Part shown: in pieces, positions 11,147 to 41,765 of the stretch
Position numbering within the stretch: position 1 is the first letter of the stretch
How the letters are laid out: every line of letters starts with the position of its first letter
Assembly (NCBI RefSeq): GCF_006539525.1
Contig: NZ_BJNE01000004.1
Coordinates: forward strand, 62,001-126,000
From: Glutamicibacter nicotianae
GTDB taxonomy: Bacteria; Actinomycetota; Actinomycetes; Actinomycetales; Micrococcaceae
Length of the DNA stretch: 64,000 nucleotides
Direction: 5' to 3'
Program-made: the position numbers and the translations under genes
The notes under the pieces: model-generated
What the model was told of the DNA's origin: nothing
Databases searched by the model: none
What the model saw: the letters and a program-made list of their open reading frames with translations, nothing else

Positions 11147-12373
11147 CTACCCCACGGACTCGGCCACGGCGCGCTGGCGGCGAACGCCGCCCCGCGCCGT
11201 GCGGCCCAGGAGCACCGCGGGCAGGATGATCGCCAGCAGCGTCACGGCACCGGAGACTACGATGATCGTGCGGGCGGGGCCCACGAGCAGTCCCGGGGTG
11301 CCGATCAGGTAGCCCAGGGCAACCATGATGTTGATGAGCATCCGCAGCTGGGCCCAGGCAGCGCCATGGCGGCTTTCCGGCACATGCTCGTAGATGGCAG
11401 TGCGCACACCGGTGTTGTGCAGCCCGTTGCCCAGGCCGCCGGCCAGGAACACCATCGCCAAGCCGACCGCGTTGGCCCAGAGCCCTTCGATGAGGATCGA
11501 TGTACCCACCAGCCCGCCACCGAGCAAAATCGGCAGGGAGCTTCGGGCACCGAAGCGCCGATTGCCTCCCAACAGGGAACCGAGCACCGCGCCGACGGAC
11601 CAGGCACCGAGCAACACCGCATATCCCGTGTCGCTATCGGTGATCTCGCGCAGGTAGAACACCCCCGCAACCCCTTCAGCTGCGGTAAACAGGACGATCG
11701 CCGCTACTGGCAGCAGCAGGATCCGCAGTCGCGGATGGCGTACGAGCGCGGCACCGCCACCAGTAATCCTGGCATTAGGAGCGGGCTCAGAACCTGTCTG
11801 AACCTCATGCCGTCTGGCTGCCAGCGAGCGCGACAGGACCACGGCCGCCATTGCCAATCCCAGGAATCCCGCCGTCGCACACCACAGCACCGCACCGATC
11901 CCTGCCCTCGCGAAGGCGATCGAAGCGATTGCCGGCGCAATAATCCCGGCCAGGGAGGTAGCCACGACAAGGAAGCTGCTGGCACGGGCAAGGCTGAAGC
12001 CACCGCGGATGCGCGGAATGATCTTGAAGACCACCGCACCGTTGATCACCGCGCAAACACTGGCCACCGACATCAAGGCAAGGCTCAGGAGAATATTAGC
12101 GAAAATAGCCATCACCGCAAAAATCCCGATATGCACGCAGAGGTTCAGGATCCACACCCGGAACAGGGCAGCACCGTCAACCCAACGCCCAATGGCCGGA
12201 GCAGCAAGGATCGGCGGAACCAGGCCAATCAAAAATAATGCTGTCACGCCCCATGACCCCAGCTGGTCCGCGGATTCAAGGGTCAAGGCAAAGAGCGCCA
12301 TCCCCTCACCAAGCATGGATAGCAGCGCAATCACGCAGAACAGGACGCAACGCACTGACGACCGCACCTGCAC
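11147..12373 (-). CDS. MFS transporter, 12-TM
   Basis: About 408 residues with 12 hydrophobic segments in two halves split by a charged loop (SLAARRHEVQTGSEPAPNAR region, about residue 200). The GRWVDG-type loop after TM2 matches the MFS motif A position. Start is uncertain: ATG at 12397 has no ribosome site, while GTG at 12373 follows AAGGGA, so I use the latter. It is probably a drug- or metabolite-efflux protein by family, but no substrate can be read. It is divergent from the SDR gene with overlapping promoters around 12400-12440. umuD follows 78 bp downstream on the same strand, and any read-through is speculative. Confidence 0.82.
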   Translation of the reverse strand: MQVRSSVRCVLFCVIALLSMLGEGMALFALTLESADQLGSWGVTALFLIGLVPPILAAPAIGRWVDGAALFRVWILNLCVHIGIFAVMAIFANILLSLALMSVASVCAVINGAVVFKIIPRIRGGFSLARASSFLVVATSLAGIIAPAIASIAFARAGIGAVLWCATAGFLGLAMAAVVLSRSLAARRHEVQTGSEPAPNARITGGGAALVRHPRLRILLLPVAAIVLFTAAEGVAGVFYLREITDSDTGYAVLLGAWSVGAVLGSLLGGNRRFGARSSLPILLGGGLVGTSILIEGLWANAVGLAMVFLAGGLGNGLHNTGVRTAIYEHVPESRHGAAWAQLRMLINIMVALGYLIGTPGLLVGPARTIIVVSGAVTLLAIILPAVLLGRTARGGVRRQRAVAESVG

Positions 12374-12466
12374 CCCGTCCCTTCGCACATGCCGCATGGA
12401 TCTGGAGGTTCTATCCTATGGGTAGGAGGATCCGCCTCCAAGGACATCTCTCACCCAAGGAGTCTC

Positions 12467-16296: not shown

Positions 16297-16917
16297 TCAG
16301 ATGCTGCGCGTCGCCAACTCGGCGTCATGCCGTGGCAGGCGATCAAACCATGGGTTCTCGCCCGGCTTGCCAACATTGACGACCAGGAAGGACTTATGGT
16401 TGTTGCCTGCGTTAATCGCGGCATCTACCGCATCGCTGTCAAAGCCACCCATCGGGCCAGCCGCCAGACCAACTGCGCGGACAGCCATGATGAAGTAGCC
16501 AGCCTGCAGCCACGCATTATTGCTGCCCACTGCGGTGCGGACTCCAGCGTCCTGGAACATCTCCTTGCGTTCCGGAGCGTGGGGGAAGAAATTCGCGAAT
16601 TCCTCGTGCCACTCGGTATCGAACGATAGAACAGCCAAGGCAGGTGCCGAAAGCGCCTTCGCGGCATTGCTTCCGGGCATGGTGCTCGCTACTGCCTGAC
16701 GCGCTTCAGGACTCTTGATCCAGGTGATGCGCAACGGCTGATTGTTCATCATCGTCGGCCCCATTTTCATGGCCTCATAGATTGCGTCCAGCACGTCGTC
16801 GGTCACCGGTTCATCGCTGAACGAATTGGCGCTGCGGGCTTCGAAGAACAGCTGATCTGCGGCTGCCTGGCCGATAGCCATCGATTCGTAAAGGTTGGTT
16901 TCTGCCTGGACGCTCAT
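16297..16917 (-). CDS. Malonic semialdehyde reductase / nitroreductase family (RutE-like)
   Basis: 206 residues, FMN-dependent nitroreductase fold. LFFEARSANSFSDEPVTDDVLDAIYEAMKMGPTMMNNQPLRI is the RutE/HadB-type N-terminus, with the Arg-x-x-x-x-F flavin site (ARSANSF) and the Asn-x-Gln-Pro loop. Later come AVGSNNAWLQAGYFIMAVRAVGLAAGPMGGFD and the C-terminal NVGKPGENPWFDRLPR. RutE reduces malonic semialdehyde from uracil breakdown. No other rut gene is nearby, so the substrate is inferred from sequence only. ATG at 16917 has only a weak GAAAG ribosome site. Confidence 0.82.
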   Translation of the reverse strand: MSVQAETNLYESMAIGQAAADQLFFEARSANSFSDEPVTDDVLDAIYEAMKMGPTMMNNQPLRITWIKSPEARQAVASTMPGSNAAKALSAPALAVLSFDTEWHEEFANFFPHAPERKEMFQDAGVRTAVGSNNAWLQAGYFIMAVRAVGLAAGPMGGFDSDAVDAAINAGNNHKSFLVVNVGKPGENPWFDRLPRHDAELATRSI

Positions 16918-17033
16918 GCGGACTCGCTTTCAAGACGGGAAGTTCTCTCCCTAGGCACAACGCCACGTCCTTCAAGCCAATTCCAAGCTAAGATGTGAGT
17001 CAGAGCACAGAACTGTGGTCTGGAGTTAAGTTA

Positions 17034-17130
17034 TAAAAGGTACGTTGCATTACTGACAGACAGCGGCGTGCGATGGGGGCACAGCGCCGATGAAAGATCA
17101 GTCCGTTTACGCAATGCAACGTACCTTTTA
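17034..17130. repeat. 97-nt nested inverted-repeat element with 17-bp perfect terminal arms
   Basis: TAAAAGGTACGTTGCAT (17034-17050) is the exact reverse complement of 17114-17130. Inside are further nested complements: ACTGA/TCAGT (17052-17056, 17098-17102) and CGGCG/CGCCG (17064-17068, 17085-17089), leaving a G-rich apical loop. It could be a MITE-like element, a structured RNA or a very long terminator for the kinase gene. No obvious target-site duplication is present. Confidence 0.55.
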
Positions 17131-17169
17131 ATCACCCTTGGATCCTCAGTGATGCCACTCGCAAAACAC

Positions 17170-17205
17170 CACCGAGTACCTTCTCGGTGATCGGTCTTCA
17201 CCGAT
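17170..17205 (-). terminator. Tandem hairpins after the sensor-kinase gene
   Basis: CACCGAG-TACCTT-CTCGGTG (17170-17189) followed by ATCGGT-CTTC-ACCGAT (17190-17205), downstream of the kinase stop on the minus strand. The rest of 16918-17267 holds only the 97-nt inverted repeat described separately. Confidence 0.55.
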
Positions 17206-17267
17206 ACATGTCTAACTTATCGCGTCCTGCAAAATTCCGAAATCATACTTTAGTAGGAGGGCAGGAG

Positions 17268-18452
17268 TCAGAACGGGATACTCGCGCGCAGTCTCCAAAC
17301 ACCATTTTTGGCATCGGTTGCAAACTTTCCACCGAATGCCCGCATTCTGTCGCCCATGCCGATCAGCCCCGTCCCGCCCTCCGGAAGGCCACTCGCTTTC
17401 TTGCCAGAATTCTCTATCTGATTAGTAATTTCCAGGACAGCTTCAGCTCCGACGACCGTGAGGCTGAAAGTGCACTTCGCGCCTAAAGCCCCGTGCTTTA
17501 TCACATTCGTTGTACCTTCTTGCATGACGCGGTAAATCGCAGTCTGGGCAGAACGGGGCAATTCGGAAATTTTCTCATCCGTGGTGGAGCTCACCTTGAA
17601 ATTTGCATCCTTTAGCCTCTGGACAAAAAGTTCGGCGCCCTGAAGCGCATACACAGTTGTAGCGGCCGGCTTGTCATTGCTGCGGGACAAAGAATCAGCC
17701 ATGGTTCCGTCGGCCCTCAGGACATTGAGCATCAGGCGCAAGTCATGCAAGGTTTCCGTACTCAGTTTGGCGATGATATCGAGCGCTTCAAGAGCCTTCT
17801 GCCCATCGTTGGCGAATTTCGCGGCCTTCGACTGCATGGCCACAACCGTTATGTCATGGGCGACAATATCGTGCAGGTCCCGGGCGATGTTCTTTCTCTC
17901 CCGGTCGACAGCAAGACGAGTCTGCTCTTCGACAGTTTGCATTTGCTGTTGCGCAACGGCATTCTTCTCTCGCAGCAAGTAGATGCTTCGCGTCACGACA
18001 TAGGCCATGGCTGCCAAGGGCACAATCGCGATCAGAAGCACAGCGTCGTTATGCGCTTGGAAGGCGAATTGCACGGCCCACGCCAGGCAGAGGGTCAAGT
18101 AGGCGGCGCGGATGCTGCGCGCCGAAGCAGTGGCCGCCAATGCGGAAAACGCCATGAAGGACACGATGGCCCAGAAGAACATCACGCCATCAGCCAGGAA
18201 GAAGAATGCCACGGCAACGAACAGGCCCAGAGAGGCAGCGGTCCAGCGCAGTCCTAGGAAGAGGATGACGCAGAGCCCAAGGCCCACCAGGGCGCCTCGA
18301 ACGGAACGGTCCGTCGAATCTGCGAGGCCATCTTGCAGGAGGGTGATGACCTCGCTGCTGGACACGGCCAGCAGCACCACGATCCCTACCCAGACAATGA
18401 CACCCCGGCCAGCGAAAAGCCTGGCCAGGGTGCCTTTGAGTCGTTCATTCAT
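17268..18452 (-). CDS. Sensor histidine kinase, NarL/LiaS (HisKA_3) type
   Basis: 394 residues. The N-terminal 160 residues contain about five or six membrane helices with very short loops and no large extracellular domain, as in intramembrane-sensing kinases. The linker REKNAVAQQQMQTVEEQTR is a probable coiled coil. The dimerisation/phosphoacceptor helix is ERKNIARDLHDIVAHD with His194. The ATPase domain ends with VIKHGALG (N box), GGTGLIGMGDRMRAFGG (G box) and a short C-terminus. The gene for a small secreted two-cysteine peptide lies 47 bp upstream on the same strand, and the response-regulator gene is divergent just beyond it. It probably senses the peptide or a membrane signal. Codon use is visibly more A/T-rich than in neighbours. 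Confidence 0.88.
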   Translation of the reverse strand: MNERLKGTLARLFAGRGVIVWVGIVVLLAVSSSEVITLLQDGLADSTDRSVRGALVGLGLCVILFLGLRWTAASLGLFVAVAFFFLADGVMFFWAIVSFMAFSALAATASARSIRAAYLTLCLAWAVQFAFQAHNDAVLLIAIVPLAAMAYVVTRSIYLLREKNAVAQQQMQTVEEQTRLAVDRERKNIARDLHDIVAHDITVVAMQSKAAKFANDGQKALEALDIIAKLSTETLHDLRLMLNVLRADGTMADSLSRSNDKPAATTVYALQGAELFVQRLKDANFKVSSTTDEKISELPRSAQTAIYRVMQEGTTNVIKHGALGAKCTFSLTVVGAEAVLEITNQIENSGKKASGLPEGGTGLIGMGDRMRAFGGKFATDAKNGVWRLRASIPF

Positions 18453-18499
18453 ATGCCGAATGATTCACGGCGATGTCAATCAAGTCAAATGGCGATGCC

Positions 18500-18682
18500 T
18501 TAGGGGCAGGCCACTCCGTAGTTCCGACAGAACCAATCAGCAAAATCCGTGCCCCAACCAGCAGGCGTGGCAACCGAACCGCCGTTAATGGCCGATGCCG
18601 GAGCAGCGGAGGCCGGAGCAGCAACCACTGCTACAGGCGACAGTGCCAATGCGGCGATTGCCAGCATTTTAAGACCTTTCAT
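18500..18682 (-). CDS. Small secreted two-cysteine peptide, candidate signal or bacteriocin-like peptide
   Basis: 60 residues. ATG at 18682 has GGGGG 6 nt upstream. It carries a textbook Sec signal peptide: basic MKGLK, hydrophobic LAIAALALSPVAVV, then A-x-A sites (APASA, about residue 26). The predicted mature part is only about 30-35 residues, Gly/Ala-rich, and ends in DWFCRNYGVACP. Its two cysteines, six residues apart, could close a disulfide ring just before the C-terminal Pro. There are no lanthionine, lasso or leader-peptidase genes nearby. It lies 47 bp upstream of the sensor-kinase gene on the same strand, with the response regulator divergent. I infer a peptide ligand or product of the two-component system; no family is recognised. 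Confidence 0.72.
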   Translation of the reverse strand: MKGLKMLAIAALALSPVAVVAAPASAAPASAINGGSVATPAGWGTDFADWFCRNYGVACP

Positions 18683-18764
18683 AACAAACCCCCATCACGT
18701 CTACTTATATACTTTCAGGTGAGCAGGACGTCGCAGGGACTTCACCATCGATCAAAGGAATCAA
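18683..18764. promoter_or_regulatory. Divergent promoter region between peptide and response-regulator genes
   Basis: 82 bp. TATACT (18708-18713) is a good -10 for the + strand, and the overlapping minus-strand TATAAG (18709-18704) serves the peptide gene, so the two promoters are face to face. A GGTGA...TCACC inverted repeat lies in the right half. AAGGA precedes the GTG start at 18765. This is a natural target for the regulator itself. Confidence 0.5.
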
Positions 18765-19439
18765 GTGGAAAAGATCAAGGTTCTTATCGTCGATGATGAA
18801 CCCCTTATTCGTCATGCGTTGGGCACAATCCTAGCAATAGATAGCGGAATTGTAACGGTTAATTCTGTTGAAAATGGGCGGGCCGCCGTCGAATATTGCA
18901 AGGACCATCAAGTAGACGTTGTGCTCATGGATTTGCAGATGCCAATTATGGATGGAGTTAGTGCTACCAAAGCCATCAAATCCGTCGAAGACAGCCCATC
19001 TGTGCTTGCTATTACCGCCTTTTCCTCCGATGAATATCTGGTTCCTGTTCTGACCGCTGGGGCCAGTGGATACTTGGTCAAGGATTCTGAACCGGATGAA
19101 ATTATCCGCGCGGTTCATGCCGTTCATCAAGGAACGGCAGCCATTTCCCCGTCAGTTTCTTCCGATCTCGTTTCTGCCGTTCGCGAGGCTTACCGCGACA
19201 ATTCCCAAGACATTCAAGATCTTGCCTATGATCTGGGAATCACCAATCGGGAATTCGAAATTCTAAAGCTGCTGGCCCGGGGGCTAAACAACACCGAGAT
19301 TTCAAGAACTCTGGCTATTTCCGAGACAACGGTTAAAACCCACATGGCCAAGATTTTCGTTAAGCTGGATGTTCGCGACAGGGTCCAGGCGTTGGTTGCC
19401 GCCGCCCGCATGGGACTCATCGAAATCCCGAAAGACTAG
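18765..19439 (+). CDS. Response regulator, NarL/FixJ family
   Basis: 224 residues from GTG at 18765 (AAGGA 6 nt upstream). Receiver domain with the acidic pocket Asp10-Asp11, phosphoacceptor Asp56 in VVLMDLQMPIMDG, a Thr/Ser switch in LAITAFSS and Lys in GYLVKDSE. The C-terminal LuxR-type helix-turn-helix (about 155-215) reads LTNREFEILKLLARGLNNTEISR with ETTVKTHMAKIFVKL; the family motif is slightly divergent. It is divergent from the peptide-kinase genes and very likely their partner. The AT-rich codon choice matches the kinase and differs from the flanking ClpC gene, suggesting the cassette moved in as a block. Confidence 0.9.
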   Translation: MEKIKVLIVDDEPLIRHALGTILAIDSGIVTVNSVENGRAAVEYCKDHQVDVVLMDLQMPIMDGVSATKAIKSVEDSPSVLAITAFSSDEYLVPVLTAGASGYLVKDSEPDEIIRAVHAVHQGTAAISPSVSSDLVSAVREAYRDNSQDIQDLAYDLGITNREFEILKLLARGLNNTEISRTLAISETTVKTHMAKIFVKLDVRDRVQALVAAARMGLIEIPKD

Positions 19440-19568: not shown

Positions 19569-22127
19569 TTGCCAGCATTCTTCGGCGCACCATCAGATGG
19601 CTCGTTTGAGGAATTCCTCTCTCGGTTCCTGTCGTCGCGAGCTCAAGCTGCGCGCCCCATCGACATCACGCGTCTGCTTTCTGCCCGTACCCACGAAGCG
19701 GTAGCCACCGCGGCGGCGATTTCCCAAGAGCACGGCCATGACGAGATCGATTCGCTGCATCTGCTGATGGCTCTGCTGCGCACCGAACCAGTTGGCGAGC
19801 ACCTGACCGCCATGGGAATCGACATCGAGGCTTTGAGTGCCGACGCCATCGCACGCATGCCCAAGGCACAGGAGCGGGACGAGAAGCCGTCCCGCCTCTC
19901 GTCGGCAGCCCAGCGCAGCCTCTTTGACGCCTATCAGGTTGCCCGTAACTACGGCTCGACCTACATCGACCCGGATCACCTTTTCCTGGCCTTCGTCTTC
20001 AATCCGGAATCACCGGTCAGCCAGCTCTTGGCCCAGCATGGCGTCACCGGACAGTCGCTGCAACAAGCTGCCATGGAGCAGGCCCAGCGGGGCAGCAATG
20101 ATGCCCAGAACCAGAACGATGCCGAGTCCGACGTGTCCATGCTCGAACGCTACGGAACCGATCTGACCTTGCTCGCGGCCGACGGCCAGATCGATCCGGT
20201 GATCGGCCGCAAAGAGGAAATGGACCAGGTAATCGAGATCCTGGCCCGCCGCACCAAGAACAACCCAGTGCTGATCGGCGAGGCCGGCGTGGGCAAGACC
20301 GCCATTGCCGAGGGCCTGGCCCGCGCCATCATCGACGACGAGGTTCCAGCGCAGCTGCGCAATGCGGCCCTGATCTCGGTGGACCTTCCGGGCATGCTCG
20401 CCGGCACCCGCTACCGCGGCGATTTCGAACAGCGGCTGACCGGCCTGCTCGACGAGGTAGCCGCCGCCGAAGGCCAGGTGCTGCTGTTCATCGATGAGAT
20501 GCACCTGCTGGTCGGTGCTGGTTCCGGCGAGTCCGGAAACATGGATGCCGCGAATATCCTCAAGCCGCGCCTGGCGCGCGGCGAGCTGCACATGATCGGC
20601 GCCACCACGCTGGATGAATTCCGCAAGGTGGAGAAGGACAGCGCGCTGGCACGGCGCTTCGGCAAGGTCACTGTCGCCGAGCCATCGGAGGAAACCGCGT
20701 TGGCCATCTTGGAAGGGCTGCGCGAATCCTACGAGGAGCACCACCAGGTGCAGTACACCCCCGAAGCGCTCAAGGCCGCGGTCACGCTCTCTGCCCGCTA
20801 CCTGAGCGACCGGCAGCTTCCGGACAAGGCCATCGACCTGATCGACATCGCCGGCGCCCGCCGCTCCATCGCCGCGGGAGATGCCGAAGACGTGCAGTCC
20901 TTGCGCGCCGAATTGGTGGATGCCGAACGCGAGAAGTCGCGCGCCATCGGCGAGGAGCGGTTCGAGGAAGCTGGCGCATGGCGCGACCACATCGCGGAAA
21001 TGACCGCGCGGATCAAGGCCGCCGAGGAATCCGGCGATGCCGAAGTGACCCGCGTGGTGGACGAAATGCAGATTTCGCAAGTGATCTCCCGCTCCACCGG
21101 CATTCCGACCTCGCGCATCTCGGGCGACGACAAGGCGCGGCTGGCATCACTGGAAGATTCGCTGCATGCTTCGGTCATCGGCCAGCACGATGCCGTCGCC
21201 GCGGTGGCTAGCGCCGTTCGCCGGAACCGCACCGGAATGTCCCCGGCTGGCCGCCCGATCGGCTCGTTCCTGTTCCTGGGTCCAACCGGTGTCGGCAAGA
21301 CCGAGCTGGCCAAGGCCCTGGCCGCAAACCTGTTCGGCTCGGCTGATTCGCTGGTGCGCATCGACATGAGCGAATACGGGGAGAAGCACACCGTGGCACG
21401 CCTGATCGGTGCGCCTCCGGGCTACGTCGGCCACGACGAGCCCGGCCAGCTCACAGAGAAGATCCGCCGCAACCCGTACTCGGTCGTCCTGCTCGATGAA
21501 ATCGAGAAGGCCCACCCGGACGTGTTCAATGTGCTGCTGCAGGTGCTCGATGACGGCCGGTTGACCGATTCGGCCGGCCGCACCGTCGATTTCTCCAACA
21601 CGCTGATCCTCATGACCAGCAACCTCGGCGGCGAGTACCTGGCCAACAAGGCCGGGAACTTCGGCTTCACTTCCGCGAATGCGGCCAGCGAAGCCGGCGA
21701 GGTCCGCGCCAAGGTCATGGGCAAGGTGCGCGAGTTCATGCGTCCGGAGTTCCTGAACCGCCTGGACGAGGTGCTGCTGTTCTCCAAGCTCTCGCCATCG
21801 GAAATCGGCCAGATCGTCAAGTTGGTCATCGCCGAGACCGAGGCGCGGCTGGCAGACCAGGAGCTGAAGCTGGAGGTGAGCGACGCTGCCGTGCAGTGGC
21901 TGGCTGGCGAAGGCTACGATCCCGAGTTCGGCGCCCGCCCGCTGCGCCGGCTGGTGCAGCGCAAGGTGCAAGATGCCATTGCGGACCTGCTGATCAGCGA
22001 TGCGCTTGCCGCTGGCGATACTGTGTCGGTGGACTATGTCGCGGACAAGCTGAAGGTGCAGAAGAAAGTCGACCTGCCGACGCCACCTGCCCACAGCGAG
22101 CATGCGCCAAGCTACTTCGATAGCTGA
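19569..22127 (+). CDS. ATP-dependent Clp protease ATP-binding subunit, ClpC-like
   Basis: 852 residues, starting at TTG 19569 with AGGAGG 5 nt upstream. It is a AAA+ unfoldase that feeds substrates to ClpP or disaggregates proteins. Order: Clp_N repeats (about 35-170); first AAA+ domain with Walker A GEAGVGKT (237-244) and LLFIDEMHLL; a short middle region with a UVR-like motif (EKSRAIGEERFEEAGAWRDH, about 455-475) rather than the long ClpB coiled coil; second AAA+ with GPTGVGKT (571-578), VVLLDEIEKAHPDVF and D2 C-terminal domain. NFGFTSA after the second sensor region sits where ClpC/ClpA carry the xGF/IGL ClpP-binding loop. The N-terminus differs from the housekeeping ClpC1, so it is a paralogue. 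A HAIR operator suggests heat-shock control. Confidence 0.9.
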   Translation: MPAFFGAPSDGSFEEFLSRFLSSRAQAARPIDITRLLSARTHEAVATAAAISQEHGHDEIDSLHLLMALLRTEPVGEHLTAMGIDIEALSADAIARMPKAQERDEKPSRLSSAAQRSLFDAYQVARNYGSTYIDPDHLFLAFVFNPESPVSQLLAQHGVTGQSLQQAAMEQAQRGSNDAQNQNDAESDVSMLERYGTDLTLLAADGQIDPVIGRKEEMDQVIEILARRTKNNPVLIGEAGVGKTAIAEGLARAIIDDEVPAQLRNAALISVDLPGMLAGTRYRGDFEQRLTGLLDEVAAAEGQVLLFIDEMHLLVGAGSGESGNMDAANILKPRLARGELHMIGATTLDEFRKVEKDSALARRFGKVTVAEPSEETALAILEGLRESYEEHHQVQYTPEALKAAVTLSARYLSDRQLPDKAIDLIDIAGARRSIAAGDAEDVQSLRAELVDAEREKSRAIGEERFEEAGAWRDHIAEMTARIKAAEESGDAEVTRVVDEMQISQVISRSTGIPTSRISGDDKARLASLEDSLHASVIGQHDAVAAVASAVRRNRTGMSPAGRPIGSFLFLGPTGVGKTELAKALAANLFGSADSLVRIDMSEYGEKHTVARLIGAPPGYVGHDEPGQLTEKIRRNPYSVVLLDEIEKAHPDVFNVLLQVLDDGRLTDSAGRTVDFSNTLILMTSNLGGEYLANKAGNFGFTSANAASEAGEVRAKVMGKVREFMRPEFLNRLDEVLLFSKLSPSEIGQIVKLVIAETEARLADQELKLEVSDAAVQWLAGEGYDPEFGARPLRRLVQRKVQDAIADLLISDALAAGDTVSVDYVADKLKVQKKVDLPTPPAHSEHAPSYFDS

Positions 22128-41639: not shown

Positions 41640-41736
41640 GGGTGACCCCTCGTGTGGTGTCATCCTGTTGAACTCCCCCAGGACCGGAAGGTAGCAAGGG
41701 TAGATGGGCTCTGGCAGGTGCATGAGGGGTCTTTTA
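41640..41736 (+). ncRNA. ffs: Signal recognition particle RNA, small bacterial (4.5S) type
   Basis: The closing stem GACCCCTCGTG (41644-41654) pairs with CATGAGGGGTC (41721-41731). The apical domain has the universal SRP sequence TGTTGAACTCCCCCAGGACC and GGAAGGTAGCAAGGG, which includes the GNAR tetraloop GGAA and the symmetric/asymmetric loops that bind Ffh. TTTTA follows as a terminator-like tail. It targets ribosomes making membrane proteins. Ends are accurate to a few nt. Confidence 0.95.
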
Positions 41737-41765
41737 CTTTCTTACGCAAGCCGAATGGAGTCCAC

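Follow-up and report, generated by a model that had tools for sequence, protein, structure and literature searches.

What does a gene of only 60 codons do when it lies beside a sensor kinase and a divergently transcribed response regulator? The question is raised by a locus of Glutamicibacter nicotianae on contig NZ_BJNE01000004.1, analysed here within a stretch of 64,000 nucleotides (the window, on which all cassette coordinates are given) of a 3.55 Mb genome. A preliminary description had read the small gene as the source of a secreted two-cysteine peptide and the three genes together as a minimal signalling unit, not typical of Micrococcaceae. We think it fairly probable that the locus is a four-part autoinducing-peptide signalling cassette, like agr and its RNAIII in the way it works, built from unrelated parts. 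The fourth part is a structured non-coding element behind the kinase.

The 60-aa open reading frame (ORF) is a real conserved gene. It lies where the preliminary description had placed it (18500-18682, minus strand), its product terminates in DWFCRNYGVACP with the expected two cysteines, and it was found in all 18 Glutamicibacter genomes among the 58 genomes searched; the other 40 gave E 0.007 at best. Across the 18 genus loci, the ratio of non-synonymous to synonymous polymorphism (pN/pS) was lowest in the signal (0.21), highest in the linker (0.86), and low again in the core (0.32), and thus reads as that of an exported precursor with an important C-terminal end. The signal itself was called by eye and by a simple hydropathy rule. 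Invariant residues include the P-A-G, W, C, Y, and C of the core. At the thresholds applied, the peptide could not be assigned to a family in Pfam, NCBIfam, or PHROG, and its AlphaFold model (mean predicted local distance difference test, pLDDT, 60) contains in the core only a helix at residues 45-55. A strict filter (signal-like N-terminus, 38-115 aa, and C-x4-8-C at the C-terminus) returned this ORF as the only match on both strands of the window. When ten 12-kb loci from other genomes were added (372 kb of strand sequence in all), 11 of 11 matches were cassette peptides; a relaxed filter applied to the same sequence gave 15 matches, four of them non-cassette peptides.

The two larger genes are of the NarL/DesK type, in agreement with the preliminary description. 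The kinase, on the same strand as the peptide ORF and 47 bp from it, has the HisKA_3 dimerisation domain (PF07730, 58 bits against a cut-off of 24). The regulator, divergent across a gap of 82 bp, joins a receiver (Response_reg, PF00072, 104 bits) to a GerE output domain (PF00196, 63.9 bits), the NarL arrangement. An AlphaFold model of the kinase built from 69 sequences (mean pLDDT 79, predicted template modelling score 0.50) has six N-terminal helices (residues 16-41, 48-66, 71-85, 89-107, 112-132, and from 134 onward) joined by short loops; they are predicted to be transmembrane (TM), without an extracytoplasmic domain. The closest solved structures were those of DesK, which matched the catalytic half. 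Between species the kinase differed most in its sensor (0.469, as compared to 0.271 for the catalytic part). The kinase probably has a leaderless promoter of its own, with no evident Shine-Dalgarno sequence; TTGACTT and the block after it were kept in 16 of the 18 genus loci (the exceptions are L020 and L021).

The three genes are regularly found together. In every one of the 18 genus loci the kinase was directly downstream of the peptide and the regulator was divergent, so that the absence of the peptide beside orthologous kinases of close relatives, named in the preliminary description as grounds for rejecting the idea, was not encountered in the genus. The 17 other loci were 49-81% identical to the window in the kinase and 63-93% in the regulator. 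A peptide profile (A1) run against 395 genomes of the family matched 44: the 18 of the genus, 15 strong matches in other genera (11 in the genus labelled g44, two in g48, and two in g15), and 11 weak ones. All 15 strong matches lay in the same cassette, with kinases 28-41% and regulators 45-52% identical, and all 33 peptides first found by profile carried two C-terminal cysteines. The weak matches (E 3e-4 to 9e-4) were dropped on alignment alone, their loci unopened: nine ended by position 42 and two ran across a stop. A second peptide profile (A2) was discarded as an order-wide search. It matched 32 of 396 genomes, of which 29 were weak (E no better than 6e-6, none extending past position 49 of 62; loci unopened) and the others were two genus genomes and G031, where the match corresponds to the peptide in cassette L136.

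Instead, loci were next chosen by the kinase alone (profile A3; 395 family and 356 order genomes), which avoids circularity. From the matches listed, 93 loci were selected, ranging from strong to weak. The kinase was found in 92; L235 was a badly chosen stretch without it, and four repeats (L239, L242, L244, L245) were removed from the counts that follow. Where the regulator was divergent and upstream, 55 of 66 loci carried a signal-like ORF ending in a cysteine pair; where the genes were arranged otherwise, or the stretch held no regulator, the figure was 3 of 22 (L163, L218, and L251; relaxed filter in both cases). None of 28 unrelated NarL kinases of seven genomes had such a peptide by the strict filter (30 loci were examined, two of them cassettes). 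A search of 376 genomes across the phylum supplied 29 best kinase loci, 28 with a co-directional regulator, and in these neither filter found the peptide. Four cassettes (L240, L241, L243, L246) lay outside the family. A divergent regulator without a detected peptide occurred at L147-L154 (eight loci of genus g13), L208, L247, and L249. The linkage of peptide, kinase, and divergent regulator is thus conserved across many genera, and the cassette is widespread in Micrococcaceae and extends to other families of the order. The earlier judgement that it is not typical of the family has to be reversed.

Across the cassettes 89 distinct peptides were collected. Since the filter demands a cysteine pair near the end, independent information on the loci after the first 33 comes from spacing and composition alone. 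The spacing was C-x6-C in 70 of the 89, with ring sizes of 4, 5, and 7-9 in the other 19; no more than one residue followed the last cysteine in 68, the residue preceding the ring was L, V, F, I, M, or W in 83, and F, G, R, L, and Y were abundant in the ring. Some predicted mature products are very short: L165 would retain about 15 residues after an AXA-like site, APGYVVCGWFPVFCR, when cleavage is placed by eye.

The history of the kinase is consistent with this linkage. In a FastTree phylogeny of 136 kinase catalytic parts, all 67 peptide-bearing rows fell in one clade of 84 (support 95), and the peptide state required 4 changes on the tree as compared to about 45.8 in shuffles; the peptide-bearing kinases are one clade with losses. 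The tree contains flagged long branches, and it omits 15 repeats or near-duplicates as well as 21 rows in which the H-box pattern was not detected, among the latter the peptide-bearing loci L167, L218, and L226; of the first 33 loci, 21 are included. The eight g13 loci without a peptide (L147-L154) have a divergent regulator across a short gap and may be listeners or ligand-switched systems.

Directly 3′ of the kinase, all 18 genus loci share a conserved non-coding stretch; because it goes with the cassette, the unit is not minimal, contrary to what had been proposed. The element begins at a conserved AGTATGAT; GCCCCCATC is the invariant loop sequence of one of its hairpins, and a long rod with CTTTTAT forms its end. 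Single-base indels argue against coding. Sixteen loci were aligned (alignment A6, which omits the near-copies L013 and L017), and on these a structure of 58 pairs had 97.9% of its cells paired, against at most 52.5% when the partners were slid. Compensatory changes occurred in 16 of the 58 pairs, and none of 500 shuffles reached any of the five measures: the secondary structure of the RNA is supported by covariation. Rfam contained no match at E ≤ 1 in 16850-17400. In each of two genus genomes a covariance model (R1) detected a single strong, full-length copy, located behind the kinase; it also returned matches elsewhere at E 0.004-0.02 and, on the opposite strand, an echo of the rod. The element might have been a leader or riboswitch of the nitroreductase gene beyond it, a reading that was dropped because the RNA candidate is kept in L053, where no nitroreductase frame follows.

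Over 8 bases the loop GCCCCCATC is a perfect complement of GATGGGGG in the ribosome-binding region of the peptide gene (window 18689-18693 and 17072-17080). This complementarity could be feedback or chance. The 8-mer GATGGGGG occurs four times in the window, counting both strands, and relatives have shorter G-runs at the peptide ribosome-binding site, with only TGGAG in L009 and L010.

Other genera also carry elements behind the kinase. In g44, a stretch of about 310 nt is common to ten loci (mean column identity 86%) and has its own fold of 80 pairs, of which 13 are compensated; four of five measures were reached by 0 of 500 shuffles and one by 21 of 500. Three of its hairpin loops are C-rich (GCCCCCAAG, CCCCCAA, and ACCCCAAG). 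A third element, with GCCCCAtGAGACGGTGCAC and a terminator-like hairpin, is shared by 13 loci of g4 and g15 (alignment A8, which omits L297 and L311, where the anchor was inexact and a similar stretch is visible), and in two g48 loci about 100 nt are common, again with a hairpin that resembles a terminator. Rfam had no match at E ≤ 0.1 at the elements of L102, L294, L302, L050, and L316. When model R1 was run on five genomes of other genera, only G111 yielded a match, a partial one located behind the kinase. On a smaller locus set it gave partial matches behind the kinase in 12 of 15 g44 genomes (E 2.5e-5 to 0.2), and the three it missed hold only about 105 nt there. In g6 a frame behind the kinase (L305-L310, L325-L330) resembles, by eye, an alkyltransferase-like (MGMT-type) domain.

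Upstream of the elements in g44, g4, g15, and g48 lies a roughly palindromic box of 23 bp, consensus AAGTCTGGACAAAGGTCTAATGT, a reasonable candidate for the operator of the regulator. It was picked by eye from alignments, and a matrix was built from the boxes of these four genera. In g13, which did not contribute to the matrix, high scores were obtained downstream of the kinase in 11 of 12 loci: 6 of 6 with the peptide (z 21.9) and 5 of 6 without it (z 6.5; downstream sides L318-L323). Downstream of the kinase in g6 and g3 the matrix found no box in any of 14 loci. The g48 peptide promoter bears the same box in both loci, with 17 and 19 of 20 bases identical; in a pairwise 20-mer test these two loci reached p 0.005, the floor of 200 shuffles, as compared to a lowest p of 0.10 in the other 41 loci. 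A first impression by eye that one box was common to Glutamicibacter and g44 was supported by neither the 20-mer test nor the matrix scan. In most aligned g4 and g15 loci (L292-L304, L052) a palindrome TGTGA-N6-TCACA, which we take to be Crp-like, stands upstream of the RNA candidate and suggests a second input.

Of the face-to-face promoters proposed in the preliminary description, only the peptide side has a candidate element, TATATAAG, conserved in most genus loci; no promoter was established on the regulator side. A genome-wide search for a second copy of the peptide promoter element, allowing up to 3 mismatches, found none, and therefore a regulon cannot be proposed.

Taken as an autoinducing circuit, the cassette would operate as follows. 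The small gene would yield a pre-peptide exported by Sec, from which the signal is removed, perhaps with trimming of the unconstrained linker; the C-terminal 15-25 residues would work extracellularly, as a ring that the two cysteines close by forming a disulfide. The ring would bind within the six-helix membrane sensor of the kinase and alter its activity, and the kinase would phosphorylate the divergent regulator. The regulator would in turn control the promoters between the peptide and regulator genes as well as the element behind the kinase. This element, once transcribed into a structured RNA, would pair its C-rich loops with G-rich ribosome-binding sites and so relay the signal post-transcriptionally. 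From the sequences we infer that the peptide is secreted and carries a disulfide, that ligand and receptor are paired, which way the effect runs, and that the RNA is transcribed and acts as described. A bolder proposal is that the order of Micrococcaceae evolved a complete agr-like circuit independently of Firmicutes, with dozens of pherotypes across its genera: a Sec-exported two-cysteine ring pheromone, a six-helix receptor kinase of the DesK type, a NarL-type regulator transcribed divergently, and a structured RNA effector that blocks ribosome-binding sites through its C-rich loops. We regard this as possible and put it forward tentatively.

Several observations weigh against an autoinducing circuit. 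Within the kinase clade, 17 peptide-less rows are found at three places (eight g13 loci, eight with another gene order, and L208), and therefore the kinase can exist without a linked peptide. The preliminary description had called for checks of co-occurrence and covariation: co-occurrence held in all 18 genus loci, and covariation between peptide and kinase TM distances was not significant within the genus (partial Mantel r 0.14, p 0.12). Over 32 loci the peptide correlated equally with the TM and catalytic parts (0.33 and 0.33), which points to phylogeny, from which the covariation is not separable. Model R1 did not find the RNA in the g15, g48, and g4 genomes supplied; the elements of different genera therefore may not be homologous. 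In g4 and g15 all 11 compensated pairs lie in the terminator-like hairpin and mostly split one genus from the other, and the pair-type count of A8 was not above that of shuffles (486 of 500). In g6 a protein-coding frame, recognised by eye, stands 3′ of the kinase instead of an RNA, and no box was seen. The box is on the opposite strand in the six peptide-bearing g13 loci, is not significant at the peptide promoters of g44 (z 2.0), g4 (1.0), g15 (-1.4), and Glutamicibacter (0.5), and was not seen at the Glutamicibacter RNA. With the peptide-promoter box confined to g48, it is not proven that the regulator controls both promoters, least of all in Glutamicibacter.

The same observations can be read in other ways. 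The non-significant covariation in the genus, the apparent promoter of the kinase, and the eight g13 orthologues without a peptide would all fit a reading in which peptide and kinase are mere neighbours, the kinase sensing some other cue and the RNA being an unrelated conserved element or a 3′ processing structure. Set against this are the contrast between 55 of 66 loci and 3 of 22 or 0 of 28, the single kinase clade with few changes, and the RNA candidate that stays 3′ of the kinase in L053 where the nitroreductase frame is absent; we judge mere proximity improbable. An accessory role is somewhat easier to entertain, and is still unlikely: the peptide could be exported as a modulator private to its kinase, reporting the state of the envelope or, through an open or closed disulfide, the thiol-redox state. 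One peptide per kinase with 18/18 presence, two C-terminal cysteines in all 33 profile-found peptides, and a core conserved rather than hypervariable within the genus would suit such a role. The ring, however, differs widely between genera save for its cysteines, a better fit to a ligand with its own receptor, and some mature products are only about 15 residues long (L165).

It is very improbable that the two-component pair induces the peptide as a small antimicrobial with a disulfide, as a signal-like N-terminus, a hydrophobic aromatic ring with F, L, and Y, and the adjacent regulator and kinase might lead one to think. Bacteriocins are usually patchy in distribution, whereas each genus genome searched gave one strong match and the peptide has been retained with the kinase through deep divergence. 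The neighbours are a Clp ATPase and a nitroreductase, with no recognisable immunity gene, and the closest transporter seen, an MFS protein (11147-12397), is about 5 kb away.

How, then, would an autoinducing cassette of this kind relate to known systems? The peptide is conserved with a kinase and a regulator, as in peptide-pheromone two-component signalling, with secretion suggested by the signal-like N-terminus, and the cassette looks like a previously undescribed form of such signalling; no published description was found in the open-access literature searched (subscription papers and preprints were outside the scope). The agr locus of Staphylococcus aureus unites a secreted ring peptide, a multi-TM kinase without a sensor domain, a regulator, and RNAIII with its C-rich loops. 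Each has a likely parallel here, the structured element being the putative counterpart of RNAIII, with C-rich loops as predicted in this study. In agr, however, the AgrD-type precursor forms a thiolactone ring on one cysteine and has no Sec signal, and the regulator is of the LytTR class; the cassette peptide has a signal-like N-terminus and two C-terminal cysteines rather than AgrD/AgrB thiolactone chemistry, its kinase is HisKA_3/DesK-like, and its regulator carries GerE. AgrB (PF04647) was matched at E ≤ 0.01 in none of six cassette-bearing genomes. The cassette is not a member of the agr family because of this absence, the other classes of kinase and regulator, and the signal-like N-terminus of the precursor.

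ComP and ComA of Bacillus form a NarL-type pair. The cassette resembles their system in having peptide, kinase, and regulator in one locus and differs in its cleavable-looking signal, cysteine pair, divergent regulator, and RNA candidate after the kinase. A ComQ-like isoprenyl transferase gene was not recognised among the immediate neighbours, and no genome-wide search for ComQ was made. The ComQXPA genes are described as encoded together (PMC4008528). Among DesK/NarL-type systems, the catalytic half of the kinase and the regulator are ordinary members; what differs is the peptide, absent from the 28 unrelated NarL kinases mentioned above. Ms1 and the 6S-like RNAs of Actinobacteria are likewise conserved structured intergenic RNAs of the phylum. 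Ms1 adjoins a HAD hydrolase in most species (PMC9130861); the cassette element lies behind a kinase.

Firmicutes supply most known cases of peptide quorum sensing by two-component systems. If the cassette works as proposed, Micrococcaceae would have a widespread communication circuit based on ring peptides and open to testing, with about 90 natural peptide-receptor pairs (89 distinct peptides) for the study of specificity; if the RNA is the effector, a pheromone circuit would have arrived independently at a regulatory RNA as its output. A 2016 review places Arthrobacter among the actinobacterial genera with only bioinformatic, LuxR-type evidence (PMC4748050).

Table. Features of the cassette in the window
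Feature	Position	Strand	Remarks
NarL-type response regulator	18765..19439	+	224 aa, GTG start, divergent; receiver and LuxR/GerE DNA-binding domain
-10-like element TATATAAG of putative peptide promoter	18704..18711	-	TATATAAG kept in most genus loci (intergenic alignment)
Pre-peptide, 60 aa	18500..18682	-	Sec-type signal, variable linker, conserved core ATPAGWGTDFADWFCRNYGVACP; C-x6-C one residue before the stop
Putative kinase promoter TTGACT-17-AATCAT	18460..18488	-	7 nt ahead of the kinase ATG
Histidine kinase, 394 aa	17268..18452	-	HisKA_3 class, six predicted N-terminal helices
AGTATGAT, -10-like start of non-coding element	17242..17249	-	within conserved CCCTCCTACTAAAGTATGATTTCG; L021 deviates at two bases
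Structured non-coding RNA candidate	17031..17235, ends approximate	-	58-pair consensus structure; 3′ rod with CTTTTAT at its end
C-rich loop sequence GCCCCCATC of RNA candidate	17072..17080	-	invariant in 16 aligned loci

The block is more A/T-rich than its surroundings, as first described: its guanine plus cytosine (GC) content is 54.3%, as compared to 60.9% for the window, and about 1% of 310 sliding windows of the same size were equally low. The centre of the cassette was also GC-poorer than the whole stretch in the five long genus loci inspected. A horizontally acquired island, which the low GC might indicate, was rejected because the cassette is present in all 18 genus genomes and the same dip recurs in these relatives. 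The adjoining genes encode a Clp/Hsp100 ATPase (19569-22127) and a malonic semialdehyde reductase/nitroreductase (16297-16917; 226.7 bits, cut-off 152). By eye, a nitroreductase is also 3′ of the kinase in a g44 genome (locus L048) and absent there in G002 (L053). The sole Rfam match across the whole window was an ordinary bacterial small SRP RNA (41641-41737; RF00169, 65 bits), and the 12 kb around a g48 cassette contain three SAM riboswitches (L050 4935-5025, 9229-9319, and 10851-10967).

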